Origin: a virus
Length of the DNA stretch: 24,171 nucleotides
Strand: one strand, 5' to 3'
Virus record (IMG/VR): IMGVR_UViG_3300009702_000467
Location: 1-24,171 of that record
This document shows, one piece after another, positions 1,514 to 13,637 of this stretch (positions are counted from its first letter, which is position 1; every line of letters begins with the position of its first letter). The notes under the pieces were generated by a model. That model had not been told where the DNA came from and ran no database searches. It saw only the letters and a list, made by a program, of their open reading frames with translations. Both the position numbers and the translations under genes were made by a program.

Positions 1514-2294
1514 TATTTCTTCCCAAAAACTTTTTAATTTCTACTAACCTTGTAGGATTTAATACTCTTGTTTTTCCTTGTTTAATAAGATAAGGATCTT
1601 TACAAATTTTGTAACCTTCAGTAAACCAATTTAGTACTACACTCTTTTGTTCTACACAATAAATGGCGAAATTTTCTTTTGTAATATCATCTTCACATAT
1701 TGAACCATTGTTGAGAGTATATCTTAATATTTGTTCAAGGATAGTAGAATACTTCATAGGCAATTCCTTTTCAAGTTTAGCTTTAATACCCTTTTCAATA
1801 TTACGATTCCGTATTCTCCAATCAGTTAAGATATCATCTACCATAGACCAATAAAAATTCCTAACAAGTAAAAGACCTGAGAATGTCTTACCAACTTCTA
1901 ACATAGGTGGCATAATAATTTCTTGATGATAAGGATATAATGCCCCAAAAACCGCATGTCCTTCAAGATTAAGTTCAAACCATTGTTTGAGTCTACTTCG
2001 CCAAATAATTATATCTTCTTTAGTTAATTCATTTGGAGGATAGTTATAAGTATAATCTTCATTCTCCCAAGGAATAAGTGTAAGAGGCTCACTCAATATG
2101 ATTAATGATATCTCCTTTGCTTCGTGTAATGATACCAATTTAGGACAAGTTTTCCTAATACTATCTTGACTTGGATGAACTGATTTACAAGGTACAAATA
2201 CAATCGGCTTATTTTTTAAAGGTTTATAAGGCATAACTATATCGGTAAACCACGCAGTAGGCATCCTGTCTGTAAATTTATGACTTTTTTTCAT
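1506..2294 (-). CDS. ArcS-like (DUF5591-type) protein, possible 7-deazaguanine modification enzyme
   Basis: This is a 262-residue protein. Residues 31-50 read IVFVPCKSVHPSQDSIRK, which lines up with the PC-x3-KPY-x2-S-x2-H motif of archaeosine synthase ArcS. The Pro, Cys, second Pro and Ser positions are kept (P35, C36, P41, S45), while K, Y and H are replaced by H, S and K. A second block, ILSEPLTLIPWE (66-78) followed by NYPP (84-87), resembles the 'SPLG-x-VPRE...Y' stretch of the same domain. ArcS acts on preQ0-modified tRNA in archaea, and relatives are linked to deazaguanine in phage DNA. The remaining 150 residues are not recognised. The gene abuts the basic-protein gene upstream and overlaps the adenine methylase downstream, which fits a DNA-modification role. 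The family match was made by eye. With the motif substitutions, activity may differ or be lost. The start at 2294 follows AGAAGG at a suitable distance. Confidence 0.5.
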   Translation of the reverse strand: MKKSHKFTDRMPTAWFTDIVMPYKPLKNKPIVFVPCKSVHPSQDSIRKTCPKLVSLHEAKEISLIILSEPLTLIPWENEDYTYNYPPNELTKEDIIIWRSRLKQWFELNLEGHAVFGALYPYHQEIIMPPMLEVGKTFSGLLLVRNFYWSMVDDILTDWRIRNRNIEKGIKAKLEKELPMKYSTILEQILRYTLNNGSICEDDITKENFAIYCVEQKSVVLNWFTEGYKICKDPYLIKQGKTRVLNPTRLVEIKKFLGRNNE

Positions 2295-2627
2295 TTACCT
2301 TCTATTCCGTTTTGCGCGATATTTTCTAATCATACTTTTGCCGTGAGAGGATTGTCTGTACTTTTGATTGTACTCTCGTATATGTTGGGCATTTTTCTTC
2401 CGCCACTCAGCTGTTTTGGCAGCAATTTCTTTTCTTCTTCTTTGATTATATTTTTTCATATATTCTTTATGACGAACATTATTATTGTTAGCCTCTTTCA
2501 CAAAGTCATTGCGGTTGTAAATCTTGCGTAATAACTTTCTACGCTCATCAATGTGAATTTGTAATAACCGACGATTTACTTCGATCAATTGATATAATAT
2601 AGCCAGACTCTCAGGTATATGTGTCAT
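2295..2627 (-). CDS. Small, very basic protein, probably nucleic-acid binding
   Basis: This is a 110-residue hypothetical protein. After a short helical N-terminal part it becomes extremely rich in Lys and Arg, with recurring Tyr-x-Lys/Arg spacing (for example EYMKKYNQRRRKE and EYNQKYRQSSHGKS) and an RNRR tail. This composition resembles the basic arm found before the catalytic domain in many phage HNH endonucleases, but no HNH, GIY-YIG or LAGLIDADG residues are present. It is therefore either a stand-alone nucleic-acid-binding protein or a remnant of a homing endonuclease. Its ATG overlaps the stop of the homing endonuclease gene by one base (TAATG), and its stop abuts the start of the ArcS-like gene, so it belongs to the same leftward operon. 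The charge pattern and position are seen; the function is not known. Confidence 0.6.
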   Translation of the reverse strand: MTHIPESLAILYQLIEVNRRLLQIHIDERRKLLRKIYNRNDFVKEANNNNVRHKEYMKKYNQRRRKEIAAKTAEWRKKNAQHIREYNQKYRQSSHGKSMIRKYRAKRNRR

Positions 2628-3181
2628 TATTTATAATCCTTACCATACCATTCTTTGTAAGCCTTTTTATAAGCTTCGTGAGCTTCAACAGCTGTAGTAA
2701 AGAGCCCTAAATAATATTTGTCTCGATTTATTGTTATATGAGCCTCATACCCATTACCATTTTTATAAACACCCCTATATCCTGACTTACCTAAAGGAAA
2801 TGATTTACAATACCTCTGTTTTCTTTTAGGCATACTTTGATTTTCTTTATATGATGCCCATTTTAAATTACTAAGTCGATTATTAGTTTTAGTCTCGTCA
2901 ATATGAGAGGCATTACAACCTTTGGGACATTCACCTACAAATGTTAATAAGACTAAGCGGTGTACATCATAGCGTTTAAAAATACCTTTATCATCTGTTA
3001 AACTAACGTGTATATAACCAACATTGTTTTTTATAAGAGTCATTAAACGAGGTGTTTTTACTAATCTACCTCCTATACATCCTCTTTTTACCCAGCTTCT
3101 TACCCTACCTAAAGAACTTACTTCATATCTACTTTCATATCCTTTTATAGGTTTCCAAATTTCAAATGCTAAATTTTTCAT
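2627..3181 (-). CDS. NUMOD4-HNH-AP2 homing endonuclease (copy 1)
   Basis: This 184-residue protein has the layout of a phage homing endonuclease. An N-terminal NUMOD4-like DNA-binding part begins EIWKPIKGYESRYEVSS (7-23). An HNH_3-type nuclease core spans about 72-116, with conserved H74, H93 in ASHID, N100-N101 and N114 of KEN. A C-terminal AP2-like domain (about 132-180) contains GYRGV and ends in an EAHEAYKKAYKEWYG helix. It probably makes a site-specific break that promotes copying of its own gene. The start overlaps the lipoprotein stop by 4 nt (ATGA) and the stop overlaps the next start by 1 nt. All HNH residues appear intact. A very similar gene lies on the opposite strand at 5388-5933. 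Confidence 0.9.
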   Translation of the reverse strand: MKNLAFEIWKPIKGYESRYEVSSLGRVRSWVKRGCIGGRLVKTPRLMTLIKNNVGYIHVSLTDDKGIFKRYDVHRLVLLTFVGECPKGCNASHIDETKTNNRLSNLKWASYKENQSMPKRKQRYCKSFPLGKSGYRGVYKNGNGYEAHITINRDKYYLGLFTTAVEAHEAYKKAYKEWYGKDYK

Positions 3182-3561
3182 TCTTTATTCCAATCTAAAA
3201 AGTTAACTTCTAATGAATAAGTTCCCAATACATCATTTACAACACCTATACCTGCAGTATATTTGGCTTTCTTAATGGTAAATTTATTCCAGGCTTGTCC
3301 TGAATTACCTGAAGTAAGAACAACTAAGGTACAGGTTCCAGTAACATAATAAATGTCATCTTTTTGAACAATATTATAAACATTATCAAACTTAATGGTG
3401 TAAGATACATCAGTACTATCAATTACCATTTGATGGGCATAATTAATTAGTTCGGTGTTTAAGATGGTTCTATTATTTGTAGGACCAGTTAAAGTGTTTG
3501 AACATCCTGCAAACAGGGCTATCAAAACTACTGCGGTTAAAACTACTACTAAATTTCTCAT
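3178..3561 (-). CDS. Phage-encoded lipoprotein
   Basis: This is a 127-residue protein. The chosen start at 3561 has an AAAGGAG ribosome binding site and gives a classic lipoprotein signal peptide: MRNL, a hydrophobic stretch VVVLTAVVLIALFAG, then Cys19 (lipobox FAGC). A longer reading from 3600 would place charged residues in front and lacks such a site. The mature part is about 109 residues, polar, with alternating hydrophobic residues suggesting beta strands (for example YYVTGTCTLVVLTS). It should be anchored in a host membrane. Phage lipoproteins made early often block superinfection or DNA entry, but nothing here identifies a specific family. The gene sits inside the leftward operon with DNA-binding and nuclease genes rather than with lysis genes, which makes a spanin less likely. 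Confidence 0.75.
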   Translation of the reverse strand: MRNLVVVLTAVVLIALFAGCSNTLTGPTNNRTILNTELINYAHQMVIDSTDVSYTIKFDNVYNIVQKDDIYYVTGTCTLVVLTSGNSGQAWNKFTIKKAKYTAGIGVVNDVLGTYSLEVNFLDWNKE

Positions 3562-3574
3562 TTTCTTTTCTCCT

Positions 3575-5065: not shown

Positions 5066-5395
5066 ATGCAAAAAAAATTAAAAAAAGAGCCAACCAACTT
5101 ATTTTATAGATTAAATAAATTGGCCACTGGTTTAAAGTATGATGATAACAAAAACATATTTACAGGTCAAGTATCTGTAGACAAAAGGAAAATTAAAGTG
5201 GATATACCTAAAGACTTATTATTCGATAACGATGTGCTCAAGGAGTGTAAAGGGGGCAATTTTGACCAATTTTATATCGAATTTCGCAATGCTTTATGTC
5301 AAAAAGCACTAAAAAACGAAGAAAATCGGTTAAAAACGCGAAATAATGATAATAATGAAGATGAAGAAAATTTGGGATGGGATGATGATGAGTAA
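5066..5395 (+). CDS. Hypothetical protein with acidic tail
   Basis: This is a 109-residue protein and the first gene of the right arm. The first 80 residues are basic and mixed in character (MQKKLKKEPTNLFYRLNKLA, then VSVDKRKIKVDIPKDLLF). The last 25 are very acidic and rich in Asn (NDNNEDEENLGWDDDE). A GGAG site precedes the start. The end overlaps the homing endonuclease start by 8 nt (ATGAGTAA). No family is recognised. Its position just before the terminase genes would suit a packaging or regulatory protein, but this is only context. Confidence 0.6.
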   Translation: MQKKLKKEPTNLFYRLNKLATGLKYDDNKNIFTGQVSVDKRKIKVDIPKDLLFDNDVLKECKGGNFDQFYIEFRNALCQKALKNEENRLKTRNNDNNEDEENLGWDDDE

Positions 5396-5933
5396 AGAAA
5401 TTTGGAAACCTATAAAAGGGTTTGAGGGTAGATATGAAGTTAGTTCTTTTGGGAATGTTAGAAGTTATGTAAAGTGGGGATGTAAAGGGGATTTACTCAC
5501 CAAACCGCGTTTAAAGGTACTTACAATACATAAAGGCACGGGGTATAAAGAGGTAAACTTACGGGATAGTAATGGTAATAAAAAAGTATTACAAGTACAT
5601 AAATTAGTTTTAGAGGCCTTTATTGGTGAATGTCCTCCTGGTTGTAATGCTTCTCATATTGACGAGACTAAAACTAACAATCATATTGAAAATCTTAAGT
5701 GGGCTTCCTATAAAGAAAATATGAATATGCCTAAAAGACTACAACGCTTTATTAAGGGCAGACCTTTAAGTAAGACTGGGTTTAGGGGTGTTGTTAAAAT
5801 AGATGATAGATATAGGGCGCAGATTACAATAAATAAGGATAGATATTACTTAGGTACTTTTAATACAGTTATTGAAGCTCACGAAGCCTATAAAAAGGCT
5901 TACAAAGAATGGTATGGACAGGATTATAGATAA
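5388..5933 (+). CDS. NUMOD4-HNH-AP2 homing endonuclease (copy 2)
   Basis: This is a 181-residue paralogue of the minus-strand endonuclease at 2627-3181. The start at 5388 is chosen because it gives MSKEIWKPIKG, matching the other copy, and overlaps the preceding stop by 8 nt; an in-frame ATG at 5346 would add an unrelated Met-rich leader. NUMOD4-like segment 4-25; HNH core 70-111 with H71, H90 in ASHID, N97-N98 and the N of KEN; AP2-like domain 129-177 ending in EAHEAYKKAYKEWYG. Long blocks such as GCNASHIDETKTNN and LKWASYKEN are identical between the copies. The HNH residues look intact. It lies directly upstream of the terminase genes. HNH proteins beside terminases can take part in DNA packaging, but the NUMOD4/AP2 layout favours homing. 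Confidence 0.88.
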   Translation: MSKEIWKPIKGFEGRYEVSSFGNVRSYVKWGCKGDLLTKPRLKVLTIHKGTGYKEVNLRDSNGNKKVLQVHKLVLEAFIGECPPGCNASHIDETKTNNHIENLKWASYKENMNMPKRLQRFIKGRPLSKTGFRGVVKIDDRYRAQITINKDRYYLGTFNTVIEAHEAYKKAYKEWYGQDYR

Positions 5934-8280: not shown

Positions 8281-10035
8281 ATGAATATATTTGATAAATT
8301 TAACAATTTTAATTATGATAATAAAAATTTGCCGAAAGGCAGTCTACGCCCTATTACCTCTGAAAGGCCTGAGAATCCTCTACAGCAAGAGGATTCCTGG
8401 GCCGGTTTTACTGGTAGTAATCTTTTAAATAGCCCCTGGCAATTAGCTAAGGTGGCTACTCAATATAGTAATAGTCATGTTGCAATATGTGTAAGCGTAC
8501 TCGCCGATGCTGTAAGCCAATTACCTGCTGATATTATTAAAGTCGAGACTTCAAACGGCACCCGTACTGAAGTCGACGATAATAATCATCCAGCCAATTC
8601 AATGTTTAAAGCCCCTAACCCTGAAACAACTTGGTCGGACTTTATGACAGGTATTGTATCTTCATTACTTTTAGATGGTAATGCTTATATAGCAATAGAT
8701 ATTGTACCTGGTGGATATGAGCTTTATTTACAAGACCCTACATCCACTCAAGTAAATGTATCCAAAGATAATAAACGAATCCTATCTTATGAGTTCGGTC
8801 CGTATGACACTCGTGTTGTGTACCCCCGTGAAAGAGTCATTCATATGCGTGAGCTTAATATTAAGAATCATTTAAAAGGTAAATCAAGATTAGATGCCTT
8901 ACGAGAAGAACTTACGATGGACGAATACATTAAGCAGTACAACGCAAACTTCTTTAAGAACGGCGGTACAATAGGATGGATGTGGACTCCTGAAAAGTTC
9001 CTAAATAAAGAACAACATAAACAAATTCAAAGGGCAATAAGAAATAGTATTAGTGGGGTTACAAGAGCATTTAGTTTATTCATTAATAGATTCCCCGGTA
9101 AGCTTGAAACCCCTAATCAAAAACATAAAGACATTGCTTTTCTTGAACTGCTTAAATATATACGAGAAACTATTAACGGCGTATTTCACGTACCTCCGTA
9201 TAAAGCGGGTGTATTAGAATATGCTAACTATGCAAACAGCACACAGCAGCAGGAATCCTTCTGGACTGACGGCGTCCTGCCCTTACTTCGTAGGATTCAA
9301 GACATTATAAATAAAGACTTCATCTGGAAGTACTACGACGAAAATCACGAACTTAAATTTAACTTAAGAGGTGTTAAAGCTCTACAGGGGAATCCAATTC
9401 AAAAGATGCAAGAGCTTACGGGATACAAAAAAGAAGGTATCCTTACTATTGATGAAGTTAGAGCCGAGATAGGCCGTGAGCCTTTAAATGCTGATCAACA
9501 GAAAGCAAGTGCTACTGCTGATAAGTATGGTCAAGCTTTACAGGATTTCTTTGAAGCCCAAAAGGCTCGGGTATTCGAGAGCATTGATAAGATTACAATA
9601 AACGGATCCTTTAAGACTTACTTAGAGGTGGCTGACTTAAATGATATATTTAATATTAAGGACGAAAATAAAAGGCTTGAAAAGATGTTAAGTCCTCTAT
9701 TACGCGGTACCGCCTTAACTGTAGGTAATGTTTATTTTGATTCATTATCAGAGGATCAAGTTTTTAATATGAACTCTGATAGTATTAAGACCTCATTAAA
9801 TACATTAATATCTAAATACACTTCAATAAATGAGAAAACATTAAATGCCGTTGAACAATTAAAAGATGAAGCTATTATATCAGGCTGGGAAATTCGTGAA
9901 TTAAAAAATAGAATAGCTGATACACTTTGTAGTACTAATGCTAAGAAAATAGGTAAAGAAATTGCAGATAATATTGTGAGGCGCGTAAGACAGGCAGCCG
10001 AGAAACAAGCTACACAGAATACGGAGGAAAATTAA
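8281..10035 (+). CDS. Portal protein (HK97 family) with MuF-like C-terminal extension
   Basis: This 584-residue protein forms the ring through which DNA enters and leaves the head. The N-terminal part, for example WQLAKVATQYSNSHVAICVS then VLADAVSQLPADI, and the later KEGILTIDEVRAEIGREPLN are typical of HK97-like portals (usual length about 400-450). Residues about 425-584 are extra. The stretch INEKTLNAVEQLKDEAIISG then WEIRELKNRIADTL resembles the N-terminal half of MuF/SPP1 gp7 head-morphogenesis proteins, although the downstream conserved 'ART(E)' region is not evident. No separate MuF gene is found nearby, so the extension may take over that role. A GGTGG site precedes ATG 8281. The end overlaps the next gene by TAATG. 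Confidence 0.85.
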   Translation: MNIFDKFNNFNYDNKNLPKGSLRPITSERPENPLQQEDSWAGFTGSNLLNSPWQLAKVATQYSNSHVAICVSVLADAVSQLPADIIKVETSNGTRTEVDDNNHPANSMFKAPNPETTWSDFMTGIVSSLLLDGNAYIAIDIVPGGYELYLQDPTSTQVNVSKDNKRILSYEFGPYDTRVVYPRERVIHMRELNIKNHLKGKSRLDALREELTMDEYIKQYNANFFKNGGTIGWMWTPEKFLNKEQHKQIQRAIRNSISGVTRAFSLFINRFPGKLETPNQKHKDIAFLELLKYIRETINGVFHVPPYKAGVLEYANYANSTQQQESFWTDGVLPLLRRIQDIINKDFIWKYYDENHELKFNLRGVKALQGNPIQKMQELTGYKKEGILTIDEVRAEIGREPLNADQQKASATADKYGQALQDFFEAQKARVFESIDKITINGSFKTYLEVADLNDIFNIKDENKRLEKMLSPLLRGTALTVGNVYFDSLSEDQVFNMNSDSIKTSLNTLISKYTSINEKTLNAVEQLKDEAIISGWEIRELKNRIADTLCSTNAKKIGKEIADNIVRRVRQAAEKQATQNTEEN

Positions 10036-12107
10036 TGAAAAAACATAATAACCTACAACGATCCGCTAACATTAAATTTAACACTGATCAAGTATTCAAA
10101 GAAGGTAATGATATAATCGTTGAAGGTTGGGCTACTAAAGAAGGTGTCAATCTTAAAGGTAATAATGTACTATTGTCCTCCTACACCTGGGACGGCGCTT
10201 TTAAATATTTCGGCGATATGGTCTTAGCGTTCCACCGCCAGGATGTAGCATCCGTAGGTAAGATTGAAAGTTATGAAATTGTTGATACAGTTGATAATAA
10301 AGGATTAAAAGTAAGAGTACGCTTTTTCGGGGACAATAATCCTTTATTCTTACGGGACATTACTGAGGGCGTCCTTAATGGCTTCAGTATAGGATACAAT
10401 GTATTAGAAGACCATTATGATGATGCGGGTAATTGGATCTTTGATAAGATTCAACTATATGAACTAAGTGTAGTTCATCTGGGGGCCAATCCTGAGGCGG
10501 TATTTCAAACAGTAATGGACGCTTTAATTGATAATAAAGAAACTAACAATGACAATAATAATAAAGAAACTAAAACCTTTACAACCATTAAGGAGAAAAA
10601 ATTAATGAGTAAAGAACTTGAGTTCAATCAAAAGGACCTGGATAATCTTAAACCGACTCTTGATAGTCTTACTGAAGGTCAAAAGACTTTGGAAGAAAAT
10701 GAAGCTGCTCGGACTAAGCTACTTAACCAGATCAATGATCAAATTAAAGACTATTCGGACGGCAAGCTTCCTGAAGGCATGCTGAAAGCCTTTATGGACA
10801 AGATTCGTCCTGACTTTGATCGTATTAATCAGGAGATCGCACAGGCTAAAGCAGTTTCAGCCACTAAAGCTGAACGCATTGATATTAGCACTAAAGATCT
10901 CAGGTCTTTAATCCGTGTAGGTTCTATGTCGGATAAAGATCAAAGAGCATGGACATTATTTAATGCTCGTGTTAATTATGACAGTATGGGTTCGACTGGT
11001 TCGCGCCTTATTCGTCTTAGAAACCTTCACGATACTGCATACATGCAGTATGTACAATCAAACGCAAGAGGCAATTTATCTAATTATTATCAGTCTGACC
11101 TCTATAAAACTTTTGAACGAGAAGTTCGTGCTTTTGATCCTATCCTTGCAGATGCTATGGCAGTAGGTAATACTGGTTATGGTGCTGAATGGAATCCGGA
11201 AAGATGGTCAGCTGAAGTTCAAGAGTATACCCGCGTTCAAGACGCCTGGGTTGCAAGACTTCCTCATTTTGAAAACATTGATAAACTTCCCAGTGTTAAT
11301 GGTAGAGGCAAAGCCTTTATCTATGGTGAACCTACAACTGATGACTCCGCTCGTATGAAAGCCACTAAATATGCAACTGGTGTTACTACTCCTACCTACA
11401 AAACCTTCGGCGCTCTCGTTTATCAGTCTCAACTATTCAACGAGCGTTCGATCGTAGCTGCTATGCAGTTTACTCGTAATGAAATCGGTCGTATTTTAGC
11501 TGACGGCCGTTCACAAGCCTTTATTAATGGCGACTCTGATGGTACGCATATGGATACTGGCGATACTTTTGCATCTGATGATGTTGAAGTTGCTATTAAT
11601 GGTTTACGGCGTTATGTCCAGGTCAATGGTACTTCAGTTGCTGCTGGCACCTCAGGTGTGTTAGCCAAGGCTGACCTCATTGATGCTTTCAGTAAACTTG
11701 GTAAGAAAGGTAATCCTTCTGAATGCTTTATTCTTGCTCCTGCACAGCTTCGTGCGACTATTTGGAATCTCGTAACTCCTATATCTGCTTTAGGCGATCA
11801 AGTCCTGACCTCCGGTATTATACCCCCGATCTTTGGAATGTCCACCTACTTTGATGGCGATTATCGTTCTAACTTAAACGCCTCCGGTATTTATGATGGT
11901 ACTACTACTGATAGAAATTCATTACTTATCGTTCACGCCCCTTCATTCGGTGTCTTTGAAGAAAGACCTATTACACTTGAATTCGAAAAACAGATTACTA
12001 ATCAACAGTGGGCTTTCGTTGGAACAGCTCGTTGGGCATTAGAACAGATTCGTACTGATGAATCTACTTCTGGTACTTACAGTGCTTCCGGCATTGTTGA
12101 CCTTTAA
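10035..12107 (+). CDS. Prohead protease-scaffold-major capsid fusion
   Basis: A 690-residue single frame holds what are usually two or three genes. Residues 1-165 are an HK97-type (S78) prohead protease. The likely catalytic triad is H67 in LAFHRQD, S118 in GVLNGFSIGY and E143 in YELSVVHLGANPEA. Residues 166-190 are an Asn/Lys-rich linker. Residues about 191-285 are helical and charged like the HK97 delta (scaffold) domain. The rest is the HK97-fold major capsid protein. The fused product should be a minor component, carrying the protease into the prohead, while the capsid is made mainly from an internal start at 10605. Binding site GGAGG; TAATG overlap with the portal gene. The cleavage site after the scaffold is not assignable by eye. 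Confidence 0.85.
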   Translation: MKKHNNLQRSANIKFNTDQVFKEGNDIIVEGWATKEGVNLKGNNVLLSSYTWDGAFKYFGDMVLAFHRQDVASVGKIESYEIVDTVDNKGLKVRVRFFGDNNPLFLRDITEGVLNGFSIGYNVLEDHYDDAGNWIFDKIQLYELSVVHLGANPEAVFQTVMDALIDNKETNNDNNNKETKTFTTIKEKKLMSKELEFNQKDLDNLKPTLDSLTEGQKTLEENEAARTKLLNQINDQIKDYSDGKLPEGMLKAFMDKIRPDFDRINQEIAQAKAVSATKAERIDISTKDLRSLIRVGSMSDKDQRAWTLFNARVNYDSMGSTGSRLIRLRNLHDTAYMQYVQSNARGNLSNYYQSDLYKTFEREVRAFDPILADAMAVGNTGYGAEWNPERWSAEVQEYTRVQDAWVARLPHFENIDKLPSVNGRGKAFIYGEPTTDDSARMKATKYATGVTTPTYKTFGALVYQSQLFNERSIVAAMQFTRNEIGRILADGRSQAFINGDSDGTHMDTGDTFASDDVEVAINGLRRYVQVNGTSVAAGTSGVLAKADLIDAFSKLGKKGNPSECFILAPAQLRATIWNLVTPISALGDQVLTSGIIPPIFGMSTYFDGDYRSNLNASGIYDGTTTDRNSLLIVHAPSFGVFEERPITLEFEKQITNQQWAFVGTARWALEQIRTDESTSGTYSASGIVDL
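10590..10607 (+). promoter_or_regulatory. Internal ribosome binding site for capsid precursor
   Basis: AAGGAG followed by AAAAAATTA and ATG (10605-10607), in frame within the protease-capsid fusion. The site decides the start of the short product. Confidence 0.75.
10605..12107 (+). CDS. Major capsid protein precursor from internal in-frame start
   Basis: Codon 191 of the fusion gene is an ATG preceded by AAGGAG 9 bases upstream (10590-10595), as strong as any binding site in the window. Translation from here gives a 500-residue protein, MSKELEFNQK onward: a charged helical scaffold-like segment (about 95 residues), then the HK97-fold capsid domain of about 400 residues. That size and layout match a normal HK97 gp5-type precursor. 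The site sits exactly at the junction between the protease and the scaffold, within a low-complexity linker, where a separate gene would start in other phages. It is inferred to supply most of the capsid subunits. Confidence 0.75.
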   Translation: MSKELEFNQKDLDNLKPTLDSLTEGQKTLEENEAARTKLLNQINDQIKDYSDGKLPEGMLKAFMDKIRPDFDRINQEIAQAKAVSATKAERIDISTKDLRSLIRVGSMSDKDQRAWTLFNARVNYDSMGSTGSRLIRLRNLHDTAYMQYVQSNARGNLSNYYQSDLYKTFEREVRAFDPILADAMAVGNTGYGAEWNPERWSAEVQEYTRVQDAWVARLPHFENIDKLPSVNGRGKAFIYGEPTTDDSARMKATKYATGVTTPTYKTFGALVYQSQLFNERSIVAAMQFTRNEIGRILADGRSQAFINGDSDGTHMDTGDTFASDDVEVAINGLRRYVQVNGTSVAAGTSGVLAKADLIDAFSKLGKKGNPSECFILAPAQLRATIWNLVTPISALGDQVLTSGIIPPIFGMSTYFDGDYRSNLNASGIYDGTTTDRNSLLIVHAPSFGVFEERPITLEFEKQITNQQWAFVGTARWALEQIRTDESTSGTYSASGIVDL

Positions 12108-12125: not shown

Positions 12126-12163
12126 TAAAGGAGAGTGTAAAAACTCTCCTTTACATAAGGAGA
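12126..12163 (+). promoter_or_regulatory. Two alternative hairpins over the adaptor gene binding site
   Basis: Hairpin A: TAAAGGAGAGT (12126-12136) pairs perfectly with ACTCTCCTTTA (12143-12153), 11 base pairs around a 6-base loop. Hairpin B: TCTCCTT (12145-12151) pairs perfectly with AAGGAGA (12157-12163), 7 base pairs around a 5-base loop, and covers the binding site of the gene starting at 12170. The two share 12145-12151 and cannot form together. There is no T-run after either, so this is not a normal intrinsic terminator. Confidence 0.65.
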
Positions 12164-13227: not shown

Positions 13228-13637
13228 TGGCTGATGCAAGACAAACATGGATAAATGAGCTTGTAGATGAAATACAAACAATACCTGAGGTAGTTGAGTC
13301 CTCTCGTCGTTTAAAATCAATAGTAGATGAGCAGTATAGTCAGCCATATGTAGGCATTCATATAGATGTAGATCAAATAAGAGTTAAAGATTCAACGCAC
13401 GTACGCAAATTAAGTACTTGTACGCTGTATATATTAACAGCCGAGGATCAAGTAAGCTCTGAAAAAATGATTAAATTAATTAATGATAAAATAGAAACCC
13501 TAACACTGACTGGAGTTAAAAAGATTTGGGTTGATAGTATAAGAGGTCCTTATGTAGAGGACCCCAATAAAGACCCTTACGCAGCAATAGAAATAGATCT
13601 ATCCGTTATATGGGTAGCATTAAGGAGCGCATACTAA
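13227..13637 (+). CDS. Tail terminator-like protein (first of two)
   Basis: This 136-residue protein has an N-terminal helix (TWINELVDEIQTIPEV), beta strands (PYVGIHIDVDQIRV and LSTCTLYILTAE), a helix (SSEKMIKLINDKIETL) and a final strand region (YAAIEIDLSVIW). This order fits tail terminator/tail completion proteins (gpU- or DUF3168-like), which form a ring capping the tail tube. Position after the gp10-like gene agrees. TAATG overlaps at both ends. The match is by predicted fold and order, not by a signature motif. Confidence 0.55.
   Translation: MADARQTWINELVDEIQTIPEVVESSRRLKSIVDEQYSQPYVGIHIDVDQIRVKDSTHVRKLSTCTLYILTAEDQVSSEKMIKLINDKIETLTLTGVKKIWVDSIRGPYVEDPNKDPYAAIEIDLSVIWVALRSAY

Follow-up and report, generated by a model that had tools for sequence, protein, structure and literature searches.

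How might a phage whose shell protein is fused to a protease build its head without filling the interior with enzyme? The question is raised by one gene of an IMG/VR virus record (IMGVR_UViG_3300009702_000467, positions 1 to 24,171; this whole stretch of 24,171 nucleotides is called the window below), in which prohead protease, scaffold, and major capsid protein (MCP) are encoded together in 690 codons (10035–12107; plus strand, as for all features of this gene). Nested protease/scaffold genes, as in lambda, and protease–capsid fusions are both already known. That an internal capsid start is kept across fusions of different origin is not stated in the literature searched, a scope that did not include Effantin et al. 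(2010). From the evidence below, we consider it likely, with a probability of roughly 0.78, that the window gene is a nested head gene with two products.

The gene lies between a portal gene upstream and a head–tail adaptor gene downstream; its start codon, the ATG at 10035, shares bases with the stop codon of the portal gene (TAATG) and follows an external Shine–Dalgarno (SD) motif, GGAGG, at 10023–10027. The single frame for protease, scaffold, and capsid, first proposed in the preliminary description, is borne out by the open reading frame and by Pfam matches, with the scaffold appearing as a helical region in a low-confidence model. Peptidase_S78 matched amino acids 71–159 (10245–10511) at 40.1 bits (curated cut-off 21; E 5e-10), and the same profile matched 11 of 11 relatives. 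Residues H67, S118, and E143, unchanged in an alignment of 11 fused genes, we take from family knowledge of Peptidase_S78 to be the catalytic His, Ser, and Glu. Phage_capsid matched amino acids 436–559 (11340–11711) at 22.5 bits, just below the Pfam cut-off of 24.2 (E 9e-5), and the capsid domain runs on to amino acid 690. Further support came from PF05065, matched at E < 0.01 by 10 of 11 family members, from TIGR01554, passed by relatives, and from T5-type MCP chains of known structure, which matched the capsid part at E 2e-4; by profile match, this part is an HK97-type MCP. The AlphaFold2 model of the protein was of low confidence (mean pLDDT 45; capsid part mostly below 50). Its order was a beta-rich protease to about amino acid 147, a helix to 169, a disordered linker at about 170–198 (10542–10628; pLDDT 20–30), and then long helices, of which about 199–295 (10629–10919) form a predicted delta-type scaffold.

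Several other features of the window were observed in passing. An HNH endonuclease gene is located near the terminase (5346–5933). Just after the capsid gene, at 12126–12153, is a perfect 11-bp inverted repeat, TAAAGGAGAGT...ACTCTCCTTTA, the SD-like and anti-SD-like arms of which stand immediately ahead of the next gene's SD. An open reading frame listed from 13610 has no SD there; it more likely starts at 13637, where an in-frame ATG comes with AAGGAG.

The preliminary description had also pointed to a second start exactly where protease gives way to scaffold, and it is present: AAGGAG at 10590–10595 stands 9 nt upstream of an in-frame ATG at 10605 (codon 191), which opens a nested frame of 500 amino acids (10605–12107) for a scaffold–capsid precursor lacking the protease. 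Both motif and start codon fall in the modelled disordered linker. Ranked by SD energy among the 126 in-frame internal ATG, GTG, and TTG codons in the genes of the window, the ATG at 10605 was fourth, and resampling of synonymous codons with the protein sequence held fixed gave P = 0.03. Predicted SD energies were −9.5 kcal/mol for the external and −9.2 kcal/mol for the internal site, and the prediction gave the region of the internal start somewhat more structure than that of the external one. Taken from this single genome alone, the evidence for an internal start is modest.

If both starts are used, initiation at 10035 would yield a 690-amino-acid protease–scaffold–capsid subunit, and a second, independent initiation event, directed to 10605 by the internal SD, would yield the 500-amino-acid precursor in the same frame. 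The two forms would co-assemble through their common scaffold and capsid domains, so that the long form would bring the protease covalently into the prohead, where it would later cut the scaffold and itself off the shell protein. Use of the start at 10605, co-assembly, cleavage, and the ratio of the two forms are all inferred.

Stronger evidence comes from relatives. Two IMG/VR contigs (L002 and L003) encode a 684-amino-acid homologue with 48% amino acid identity to the window protein; at the same border they carry ATAAGGAGAACCAAATGAGCAAA, an SD with an in-frame ATG, within a linker most of which is unalignable with that of the window. Scans with parts of the alignment collected a family of many split genes and eleven distinct fused ones (the window gene, L002, L020, L022, L024, L025, L110, L114, L116, L031, and L078). 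Each of the eleven combines an SD with ATG or TTG, in frame, at the border, and in ten the border start outranks every internal start in 60-codon control windows taken from the same gene. Synonymous-codon resampling over the eleven gave a Fisher P of about 3e-6, an optimistic value given that the genes are related and the lineages not fully independent. The preliminary description had named loss of the internal site in relatives with the same fusion as evidence against its proposal; the site is kept in all fused members of the family that were found. Genome-wide scans of bacterial genomes gave no relatives. As a separate observation, L002 carries HNH endonuclease-like and GIY-YIG-like genes (2076–3063; recognized by eye, not by profile) directly upstream of its fused gene, the GIY-YIG-like gene overlapping the fused-gene start.

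Seven of these genes (L020, L022, L024, L025, L110, L114, and L116) have TTG as the border start. The corresponding Leu is written as TTG in all seven, when TTG makes up only 15–31% of the Leu codons in these genes; from codon usage, the product of chances for this outcome is 2.7e-5. In a four-gene alignment this Leu was the sole invariant residue between protease and scaffold. The SD preceding it is read in several frames, as R-S, E-R-G, E-G-D, T-G-D, V-R-S, E-R-N, or E-V. Because the Leu is always TTG and the SD shifts its reading frame, the border signal is kept as RNA and not as peptide. A conserved peptide motif at the border, such as a cleavage site, was considered and rejected, as the reading frame of the SD differs among relatives. 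Fixation of TTG together with an SD whose reading frame varies is, from sequence comparison, the strongest single argument for initiation at the border.

Split members of the family locate the same start by another route. In two of them, L021 and L027, this capsid protein has its own MCP gene, which begins with an SD and an ATG, the ATG lying within the 3′ end of a protease gene in another frame; the start of the nested frame in the window, 10605, corresponds to the start of these MCP genes. On a quick capsid-domain tree, L021 and L027 sat among the fused genes and the fused L078 elsewhere, so the fused or split label would need at least three changes on that tree. This placement suggests that fused and split arrangements interconvert with the start kept, a conversion that would be easy if the capsid start works in both forms.

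Fusions of other lineages were compared next to the family. For actinobacteriophages, protease–capsid fusions have been published (PMC5513430, PMC7302621); the passages of those two papers that describe them present plain fusions and mention no internal start. Among 15 divergent representatives of the actinobacteriophage groups (clusters AN, AM, AU, EE, EL, AX, FE, CW, DM, and RRH1), a border start was found in 13, one of them weak. It is an ATG in Kevanna, TinoCrisci, Gordon, Penoan, Atraxa, Adaia, GMA5, Schiebs, McGonagall, BlueFeather, and RRH1, an ATG with a weak SD in Yavru, and a GTG in PensacolaC28; the border in Gordon is less certain, with a region of about 110 amino acids between protease and start site. 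No convincing border start was found in the Gordonia phages Emperor and SallySpecial. An SD with an ATG at codon 121 of Emperor was rejected as a border start, since it lies upstream of the protease. These two fusions (Emperor, L132, 1051–2910; SallySpecial, L138, 1439–3346) have an additional N-terminal hydrophobic, perhaps holin-like, domain, with an SD and ATG between it and the protease; such a domain is also present in L133, L137, and L140 (Gordonia and Rhodococcus fusions). A window-position test on fusions of other lineages gave low combined P values, which are rough, as the windows overlap. Synonymous resampling of the GC-rich actinophage fusions yielded no signal (Fisher P 0.97), so the support they lend is positional only.

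Outside the actinobacteriophages, Gifsy-2 has protease, scaffold, and capsid in one gene according to Effantin et al. 2010, as cited in PMC3121763. All three non-actinobacteriophage fusions carry a border start. The best internal start of Gifsy-2 is an ATG at codon 221 with AGGAG (SD energy −8.8), where the ClpP domain ends; BR200a retains it, and the Rhodobacter phage RcKai (L143) has AAAGGAA and an ATG at its own border. In RcKai (1526–3568) the capsid part is Gifsy-2-like and the protease part looks unlike ClpP, which suggests that the protease half of such fusions may be swappable. The arrangement had seemed peculiar to the window gene. That idea seems not to hold: border starts recur across fusions and appear, from the genomes compared, to be the rule for protease–capsid fusions, with at least two exceptions; judged by Emperor and SallySpecial, the border start is not essential in every lineage.

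These exceptions bear on the simplest alternative, that only the long fusion is made, every subunit carrying a protease that cuts itself off near the border, and that the internal start is a relic of a separate capsid gene. Such a single product would suit fusions with no good border start, the external start of the window, no weaker than the internal one, and the published annotations, which in the relevant passages of PMC5513430 and PMC7302621 call such genes plain fusions. A relic should decay, yet SD and start codon have been kept through about 50% amino acid divergence, despite changes in the reading frame of the SD and with TTG fixed in seven genes. We regard the single product as unlikely.

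Two further alternatives are more doubtful still. SD-like motifs within genes have been proposed to slow ribosomes, and a motif in a linker between folded regions, where the low-confidence model puts this one, could mark a translational pause that lets protease and capsid fold in sequence, with no initiation at all; a pause could do without a start codon, but one, ATG or TTG, stands at the proper distance in 11 of 11 family members, and TTG is preferred over other Leu codons, so a pause seems quite improbable to us. Marginally less probable again is a scheme with two products in which the short one has its own transcript, begun within the protease region as in herpesvirus UL26/UL26.5, and owes nothing to internal initiation on a shared mRNA. 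A promoter-like site at 10528–10556, upstream of 10605, would serve such a transcript, but promoter-like sites in the region are at chance level, with 8 found against 6.0 expected.

Two products from two starts on one frame remain the preferred reading. The preliminary description had expected initiation strength to keep the protease-to-capsid ratio low; such a ratio is not predicted from the sequence, in which the SDs are nearly equal, the internal start is slightly the more structured, and seven relatives use TTG. TTG is a weak start, and ATG would be the expected start of a major capsid product, which counts against the two-product reading. The TTG starts argue against a simple excess of the short form, and suggest that diluting the protease-bearing subunits moderately may be enough.

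With that qualification, the so-called protease–capsid fusion genes probably make two proteins, protease-tagged and plain shell subunits. We lean, by a small margin over even odds, toward a broader statement: that nested two-product genes are the rule among tailed-phage protease–capsid "fusions", that the internal start has many times been retained, lost, or switched between the fused and the split arrangement, that this has happened in no fewer than two unrelated families of protease, S78 and ClpP, and that the reason is a need of heads for protease-free subunits. If this is true, genes now recorded in many phages as encoding one fusion protein have been misread, each giving two shell subunits, with and without protease; the interconversion of fused and split forms is explained; and so is how protease-fused subunits build a head without an interior full of enzyme. 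The two-product reading can be tested in culturable phages, namely Gifsy-2 and the Arthrobacter and Microbacterium phages.

The window gene can be set beside described systems in turn. The NCBIfam model NF045541 (prohead protease/major capsid protein fusion) has the same domain order, and the protease part matches, but the window protein reaches 36.8 bits, far below the cut-off of 525, and is outside that family. T5-type phages (DT57C and the Vibrio Thalassavirus phages) have a distantly homologous head protease and MCP in the same order, but as two genes with stop codons between them. The actinobacteriophage fusions share protease, scaffold, and capsid in one frame and, in 13 of 15, the border start; they differ in that their similarity to the window gene is distant and mostly in the protease part, and in that their genomes are mostly 14–17 kb. 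Gifsy-2 likewise has protease, scaffold, and capsid in one frame, with its strongest internal SD and ATG at the same border, but its protease is ClpP-like and unrelated to the S78 protease of the window. In the lambda C/Nu3 pair, nested protease/scaffold genes have an in-frame internal start at the border, such that the long form has the protease and the short form lacks it, and the capsid protein is encoded by a separate gene; Mu I/Z is similar. The parallel with lambda drawn in the preliminary description holds, including the difference it noted: the window shares the in-frame internal start with an SD at the protease–scaffold border, but its nested product includes the capsid, in the same frame and with no separate capsid gene. 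With its two products predicted from sequence, the window gene is one that would work like the C/Nu3 pair but is not that pair.
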